From: Planctomycetaceae bacterium
GTDB lineage: Bacteria; Planctomycetota; Phycisphaerae; UBA1845; UTPLA1
Assembly: GCA_011525745.1 (NCBI GenBank)
Contig: WYBU01000009.1
Location: 62,001-126,000, forward strand
DNA length: 64,000 bases
Reading direction: 5' to 3'
The translations under genes were made by a program, and so were the position numbers. Below the pieces are notes generated by a model. The model was given only the letters and a program-made list of their open reading frames with translations, made no database searches and was not told the origin of the DNA. The stretch's first letter is position 1, and the number at the start of each line of letters is the position of its first letter. Of the stretch, positions 10,340-22,748 are shown one piece after another.

Positions 10340-11929
10340 TCACGGGCGATGCAAATCCGTGTCCTCCAACCGCTTGATGTTCACCAATTGCCCTTCAAAA
10401 AGCTCCATCGCCTGGCGCACCATCGGCTCGGTCATCATCGCCTTGACTTCCTCGGTGCGCGGCCGGCCGGCGATGTTGAGGGCGGGCGGCGCGGCGTTGC
10501 GCGATTCGGGTGCGACGGCCGGAACTGCCACCGGTCGATGATCAGCGGGGATCGGCGCGATGGGCATCGGCTCATCGGCGTCCGCCGCTGACGCGACCGC
10601 GTCAGTCAGTTGCGGCTCTTTTTTTTTTGACGCCGGCGGCAATGCGACGCTGCTTCGAGCGGCGCCGGCGGCGACACGGCCGGCGTCGTCGGAACTTGTC
10701 GCGCCGGCGGCGAGCGTTGTCCCCGGGCTGGCGCCCGGGGTTCTGACAGCCGGTGTGGCTCCGGGGATTGTGCCGGCGGTTCTGACCGGAGCGGCGCCTT
10801 CCAGCCGCGACAGCAGCGCTTCGATCGAGGCGAACTTCGCGGTGTCGGCCAGGCGCACGAGGGCCGCTTCAATCAACGCGCGGCTCGATCCGCTGTAGCG
10901 CGTGGCGCGGCGCAGCTCTTCTATCACCGAGATCATGAACACATACGCCGGCGGCTCGAAGCGTTGCGCCTGCTCGGACATCCTGGCGCGAACGGTGGCC
11001 GGCACGTCGATCAGCTCGGTCTCGGCGCCGCAGACGCGCAGCATCATCAGATCGCGCAAGTGCGACACGACCGCCGCACACCACTGATCGGCCGCCTGAC
11101 CGCCGCTGAGTCCGTGATCGGCGGCGGCCAGCGCCCCGGCCGGATCGCTCGCGGCCAGACAATCAATGACGGCGGCGATGCGCTCATCGTGCGGAACCGG
11201 CAGGAATTCGTCGACGATCTCGGCTGTGAGCTTGCCCTCGCTGACCGACAGGAGCTGATCGAGCATCGACACGCCGTCGCGCAGCGAGCCGTTGGCCAAC
11301 CGCGCGACGCGCCGCAGGGCGGCCGAATCGGCCTTGACCTTTTCGCTCTTGCAGATGAAGGCCAGCCGATCGGCGATGAGATCGGCGGTGATGGGTCTGA
11401 AGTCGAATCGCTGGCAGCGGCTCTGGATCGTGGCGGGGACCTTCTGCGGATCGGTGGTGGCGAGGATGAACTTGACGTGACCGGGCGGCTCTTCGAGCGT
11501 CTTCAACAGGGCGTTGAAGGCGTTGGACGAGAGCATGTGAACTTCGTCGATGATGTAGATTCTGTAACGACCGCGGGCGGGCATGTAGATGGCGTTACCG
11601 CGCAGCTCGCGGATGTCGTCGACGCCGGTGTTGCTGGCCGCGTCGATTTCGATCACGTCAATGTCCTCGCCGCGGGCCACGTTCACGCACGATTCGCATT
11701 CTTCGCACGGTTGCGTCGTGGGGGCGTCGGCCTTCAGGCAGTTGAGGCACTTGGCGAGAATGCGGGCCATCGAGGTTTTGCCCGTGCCGCGCGTGCCGCA
11801 GAAGAGGTAGCCATGATGCACGCGGCTGGACTGAATGGCGTTCTTCAGCGTCGTCGTGACGGCGGATTGACCGATGACCTCGTCGAAATTCTGCGAACGG
11901 TATTTGCGAGCGAGTACGGTGTAGGACAT
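10340..11929 (-). CDS. dnaX: DNA polymerase III tau/gamma subunit
   Basis: This 529-residue clamp-loader ATPase has MSYTVLARKYRSQNFDEVIGQ at the start, Walker A GTRGTGKT (45-52), zinc cysteines C61, C64, C75, C78 and C81, Walker B IIDEVHML (126-133), and the sensor/SRC region LATTDPQKVPATIQSRCQRF. Domain III (RSGS-like GSSRALIEAALVRLA) ends near 370. A proline/alanine/threonine-rich linker follows and includes a GC palindrome repeat (about 10730-10749). Three consecutive lysine codons (435-437) come from an A10 run; slippage there would end the protein within about six codons and yield gamma. The C-terminal tau tail is short. It is the first gene of the dnaX-ybaB-recR set, downstream of the SRP RNA gene. 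Confidence 0.96.
   Translation of the reverse strand: MSYTVLARKYRSQNFDEVIGQSAVTTTLKNAIQSSRVHHGYLFCGTRGTGKTSMARILAKCLNCLKADAPTTQPCEECESCVNVARGEDIDVIEIDAASNTGVDDIRELRGNAIYMPARGRYRIYIIDEVHMLSSNAFNALLKTLEEPPGHVKFILATTDPQKVPATIQSRCQRFDFRPITADLIADRLAFICKSEKVKADSAALRRVARLANGSLRDGVSMLDQLLSVSEGKLTAEIVDEFLPVPHDERIAAVIDCLAASDPAGALAAADHGLSGGQAADQWCAAVVSHLRDLMMLRVCGAETELIDVPATVRARMSEQAQRFEPPAYVFMISVIEELRRATRYSGSSRALIEAALVRLADTAKFASIEALLSRLEGAAPVRTAGTIPGATPAVRTPGASPGTTLAAGATSSDDAGRVAAGAARSSVALPPASKKKEPQLTDAVASAADADEPMPIAPIPADHRPVAVPAVAPESRNAAPPALNIAGRPRTEEVKAMMTEPMVRQAMELFEGQLVNIKRLEDTDLHRP
10588..10628 (-). promoter_or_regulatory. dnaX A10 slippage site and hairpin
   Basis: On the coding strand a run of ten A (10628 down to 10619) reads TCA AAA AAA AAA GAG in frame. 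One base gained or a -1 shift leads to TGA after five codons (R-A-A-T-D); one base lost leads to TGA after S-R-N. Thirteen nt after the run, CTGACGC and GCGTCAG (10605-10588) form a 7-bp stem with a GGTC loop. A-runs of this kind drive transcriptional slippage or -1 frameshifting in known dnaX genes (Thermus thermophilus, Escherichia coli). Function here is inferred. Confidence 0.75.
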
Positions 11930-22713: not shown

Positions 22714-22748
22714 GAGGCGGCCGAGTTGCGGCCGCCTCTTTTTTTTTC
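22714..22748 (+). terminator. Rho-independent terminator
   Basis: GAGGCGGCCG and CGGCCGCCTC form a perfect 10-bp stem with a 5-nt AGTTG loop, followed by nine T residues. It lies 36 nt after the stop of the propeller gene. It is the clearest intrinsic terminator in the window. Confidence 0.92.

Follow-up and report, generated by a model that had tools for sequence, protein, structure and literature searches.

A probable Thermus-type slippage site in dnaX of a planctomycete, and the division of gamma and tau among its relatives

The reverse strand of the window, that is the whole stretch of 64,000 nucleotides that was analysed (G+C 66.6%), carries a dnaX gene whose zero-frame product is tau. 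The assignment is based on the open reading frame, the NCBIfam models dnaX_nterm (TIGR02397) and PRK05563, Pfam, and solved gamma/tau structures, the chains of which align to DnaX residues 1–359, and the nearest named DnaX records are from Phycisphaerae, Planctomycetota. The clamp-loader core constitutes residues 1 to about 375, and near the end of the tau-specific part there is a motif, EPMVRQAMELFEGQLVNIKR, common to the tau ends of the relatives. The features of the locus are the following.

10340–11929, reverse strand: dnaX, zero-frame product tau, 529 aa.
10340–10618, reverse strand: tau-specific linker and C-terminal end.
10619–10628, reverse strand: putative slippage run of ten adenines (A10; T10 on the forward strand), from the sequence.
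10606–10608, reverse strand: TGA in the +1 frame (mRNA with nine As), ending a predicted gamma of 440 aa, from in silico editing of the run.
10602–10604, reverse strand: TGA in the −1 frame (mRNA with eleven As), ending a predicted gamma of 442 aa, from in silico editing of the run.
10588–10605, reverse strand: stem-loop with a 7-bp stem and a tetraloop (CTGACGC-GGTC-GCGTCAG), 13 nt 3' of the run, probably not functional.

The coding strand at the run reads TCA AAA AAA AAA GAG (product KKK) and corresponds to dnaX codons 434–437, past the clamp-loader core as in a run of the Thermus type. The A10 is exactly as described in the initial annotation, which also considered it unlikely to arise by chance, and a whole-genome count agrees with this, as the dnaX run is the sole A10/T10 in 5.40 Mb; runs of nine or more number 15 in the genome. 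A shift in either direction had moreover been expected to meet a TGA soon afterwards, allowing both a gamma of about 440 residues and a tau of 529, and editing of the run in silico gives products of 440, 442 and 529 aa, the shifted-frame TGA codons beginning 10 nt (+1 frame) and 14 nt (−1 frame) 3' of the A10. The only other A/T run of eight or more in the window is a T9 at 22739–22747, which together with a preceding GC stem occupies positions 22718–22747, 3' of a gene encoding 1024 aa. It was rejected as a second slippage site and is likely to be an intrinsic terminator.

A long run is found at the same place in many relatives. In a set of 59 dnaX genes from the order and two named close relatives, taken largely from draft genomes, 36 genes in and near the order have A9 or more and 22 are without a run, and 11 genomes, the window's own and those of 10 further relatives, contain no A10/T10 other than the dnaX run. 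Across Planctomycetota an A9–A11 run recurs where the conserved clamp-loader core gives way to the unalignable linker, at about codon 373–434, and a Gemmata and a Schlesneria are among the more distant planctomycetes that have A9–A10. Among the single-ORF genes the lengths peak at A9 (28) and A10 (38), and the zero frame is that of tau in nearly all genes with A9 or more. The run-bearing relatives share only about 45–65% DnaX identity and have linkers that cannot be aligned. Among them the run is found in each of the codon phases 0, 1 and 2, with different encoded residues, indicating that the nucleotides and not the residues are kept. At the linker of the run-less relatives of the order no other slippery heptamer is held in common, and no lysine cluster was found; gamma should in these relatives be either dispensable or made otherwise. 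Outside Planctomycetota, the dnaX linker begins with an A10 in a member of Spirochaetales and with an A9 in a member of Bacteroidetes, and each of these genes has stops near the run in both frames. In one genome of the window's family (L075) dnaX is split near residue 200 with an intact A9 at the linker; the frame break is probably a base-calling error unrelated to the run, and this genome was left out of later counts.

Of the 60 genes that have A9 or more and tau in the zero frame, 42 have a stop within 30 nt in each of the two shifted frames, against 2.6% at matched sites of run-less genes. In an earlier set the corresponding figures were 33 of 50 genes against 6% of shuffles of the downstream codons, with a combined p of 9e-29, where the p-values are only indicative since the homologues share ancestry and their independence is overstated. 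Such a comparison of run and stops across related planctomycetes had been proposed in the initial annotation. A −1 ribosomal shift needs only the −1 stop and polymerase slippage needs both, and the stops in both frames are therefore the best single discriminator between the two.

Six relatives show the reversed arrangement. In L072, from the same order, an A10 is closely followed by the end of the zero frame at 399 aa, and only with one A more is a tau of 560 aa obtained, which has the conserved DPLVQQVMELFDATLTNLRR at its end. Five others (L182, L236, L351, L356 and L359) likewise have A10, a zero-frame stop, and tau only in the −1 frame. If the base calls are right, slippage would be obligatory for tau in these six, and the uniform −1 direction is compatible with polymerase slippage biased towards insertion as well as with a −1 shift of the ribosome. 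Two-ORF dnaX genes with A10 form a GeneTack cluster in other bacteria, for which transcriptional slippage was inferred (PMC3711429), and the six planctomycetes match this form. The window shares with it the long A run between the gamma and tau parts, but tau needs a slip there, whereas the two-ORF form is not found in the window, where tau (529 aa) is read in the zero frame.

Of the hairpin that the initial annotation placed after the A10, the stem is present, with 7 bp and 13 nt from the run, but a role for it is not supported, its stability being ordinary for such GC-rich sequence (z about −0.8 to −1.0) and the stem not being conserved. No conserved downstream structure was found in single-ORF dnaX genes with A9 or more (mean z 0.02, 54 genes), and the mean downstream z is −0.41 in the reversed genes with A9 or more and −0.12 in run-less genes. 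A functional downstream hairpin was rejected, as there is no excess stability across 45–54 homologues, and so was an upstream stem stimulating polymerase slippage, as the upstream windows show no excess compared with run-less genes. The CGCCGGCG directly 5' of the run pairs with an upstream copy. A Shine-Dalgarno-like element about 10 nt upstream was not found, GCATTGCCGCCGGCGTC being judged by eye to be without an AGGAG-like stretch.

Other relatives have a short site and no long run, and in these the zero frame closes gamma shortly past the site, and the rest of tau is read in the −1 frame. One class contains 13 cases, 12 with A7 and one with A8, all in phase 2 and with the zero-frame stop adjoining the site; eleven genes of this kind are Phycisphaerales-type (A8 in L083). 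In three of them (L082, L083 and L086) the stem is located 5–6 nt from the site, as against 13 nt in the window. Five other genes (L170, L174, L181, L345 and L347) read G_GGA_AAA GCC TGA followed by a stem, with the tau end ARELFAPE in the −1 frame. In family f21 (L313–L331; also L227, L230, L239, L247, L248 and L264) the zero frame ends at 383–396 aa, and every readable member but one has a C_CCN with one codon or none between it and the stop, the exception being L321, where it is five codons upstream. In this family the remainder of tau is read in the −1 frame, and a strong stem starts at or just past the stop. The mean z of the downstream stem is −1.96 for A7, −2.20 for G_GGA_AAA and −2.12 for C_CCN of f21. 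In 12 aligned f21 sequences 96.4% of the cells are paired, with 6 double-sided changes, and the covariation is 0.271 compared with 0.093 in shuffles, slid versions coming nowhere near; the rows were chosen for folding, so the covariation is support and not proof. The arrangement in family f21 suggests −1 frameshifting by the ribosome at a proline site that lacks a classic heptamer, and its C_CCN is possibly a new type of dnaX shift site; the f21 and f9 lines are to be taken as leads. In L211 (family f61) DnaX ends at 376 aa and an ATG precedes a tau-like end in the +1 frame, so that the tau part is perhaps separately started.

The dnaX gene is the standard case of two bacteria reaching the same two proteins by different slippage, of the polymerase in one and of the ribosome in the other, and in the T. 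thermophilus type the mRNAs have a heterogeneous number of As and the two DnaX proteins are made at about 1:1. The T. thermophilus site is an A9 with transcriptional slippage according to the accounts of Larsen 2000 in PMC1088944 and PMC5009743, and the situation of two tRNA-Lys in Thermus has been linked to polymerase slippage (PMC5009743). As a sign of purposeful slippage, a run of nine As with its length conserved in homologues has been proposed (PMC1088944). The window resembles T. thermophilus in the long A run late in the gene, the zero-frame tau, the near stops in both frames and the two tRNA-Lys genes (UUU and CUU in the window's genome); unlike it, the window has A10 in place of A9 and comes from another phylum. 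E. coli dnaX is the same gene with the same two products, and uses −1 ribosomal frameshifting at A_AAA_AAG with a Shine-Dalgarno-like element and a stem-loop. The window differs by having no AAG, no close or conserved stem and an extra stop in the +1 frame, and a stimulatory stem-loop shortly downstream, as in E. coli, was not found there. The heptamer A_AAA_AAA is unavoidably in phase inside the A10, but it is not the efficient A_AAA_AAG.

Taken together, the A10 is probably a programmed slippage site of the T. thermophilus dnaX kind, at which RNA polymerase would slip on the run. The mRNAs in which the run counts 10 As, or differs from 10 by a multiple of three, would then give tau, and those with other numbers would reach a TGA 10–14 nt further on and give a gamma of about 440 aa, with the whole clamp-loader core and without the tau-specific C-terminal end. 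We infer that the run does slip, mainly during transcription, and that the cell makes use of both proteins. The proposal of gamma and tau from one slip, made in the initial annotation, is strongly supported by the conserved run, the stops and the reversed relatives; the machine had there been left undecided, and the comparison favours the polymerase, since the absence of a hairpin beside a long run, the both-frame stops and the pair of tRNA-Lys genes speak for RNA-polymerase slippage rather than a −1 ribosomal shift. A mixture of polymerase and ribosome is possible, as the A10 includes A_AAA_AAA and ribosomal −1 slippage could therefore contribute.

Ribosomal −1 frameshifting of the E. coli type as the main event, where A_AAA_AAA and the −1 TGA would give gamma, perhaps helped by the hairpin, is unlikely. 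The heptamer is in phase with the −1 TGA 14 nt past the run, ribosome-type sites, namely a phase-2 A7 with a stem, do occur in relatives of the same class, and all six reversed A10 genes go in the −1 direction, but A_AAA_AAA is far less shift-prone than A_AAA_AAG in E. coli (PMC5009743), and the genes with A9 or more are without a conserved stem, compared with z of about −2 in the short-site genes. Seven As would suffice for the ribosome, yet the lengths cluster at 9–10, the stops in the +1 frame are selected too, and the two tRNA-Lys genes likewise speak for the polymerase.

That the run merely encodes a lysine cluster wanted in the linker, with coincidental stops, would suit the KKK here and the lysine-rich homologues, but it is very improbable in view of the varying codon phase and hence residues, the absence of such a cluster at the linker of run-less relatives, the both-frame stops far above chance, and a lysine codon usage that prefers AAG 3:1 in these genes (76% AAG elsewhere in them). 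Chance or a homopolymer assembly error is still harder to credit: the base count rests on a single draft genome with no very close relative, but dozens of independent genomes have a conserved A9–A10 in the same position and the dnaX A10 is the only one in its genome. Equally implausible is a hypermutable DNA-level switch (phase variation) instead of a decoding signal, since, although long runs are mutable in replication too (PMC1088944), dnaX is expected to be essential, the length is held at 9–10, and tau is in the zero frame of nearly all genes with A9 or more.

In a FastTree tree of 221 DnaX cores, a quick one, the three states (long run, ribosome-type site and none) need at least 21 changes, and long run against none needs 8 in and near the order; these counts give no direction. 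In the midpoint-rooted tree of the window's family the first branch is that of the window, which has the run, and the run-less members are scattered, which suggests that the long run has been repeatedly lost in this family. Homologues lacking the run had been named in the initial annotation as evidence against a slippage site, and 22 of the 59 genes do lack it, but the states are scattered on the tree.

The A10 of the window is very probably a clear new case of the known Thermus-type slippage, and the result for the wider phylum is of more interest. No report of planctomycete dnaX recoding was found in the open-licence literature, which is weak evidence of novelty. For annotation the relatives carry a warning: several planctomycete groups encode the tau part of dnaX in a different frame, where it might be overlooked or mistaken for a pseudogene. 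Both solutions occur within this one phylum, and with them several shift sites. On balance we favour the view that Planctomycetota split gamma and tau by two machines that have repeatedly been swapped, the polymerase at hairpin-less A9–A11 runs and the ribosome at short sites with a hairpin (A7, G_GGA_AAA and C_CCN, with tau in the −1 frame), run and hairpin being mutually exclusive. If this is true, that exclusiveness would make the phylum a natural experiment on a recoding signal moving between machines, in which one could ask at what point and for what reason one machine takes over from the other, and whether the change is driven by tRNA-Lys content or by loss of the hairpin.
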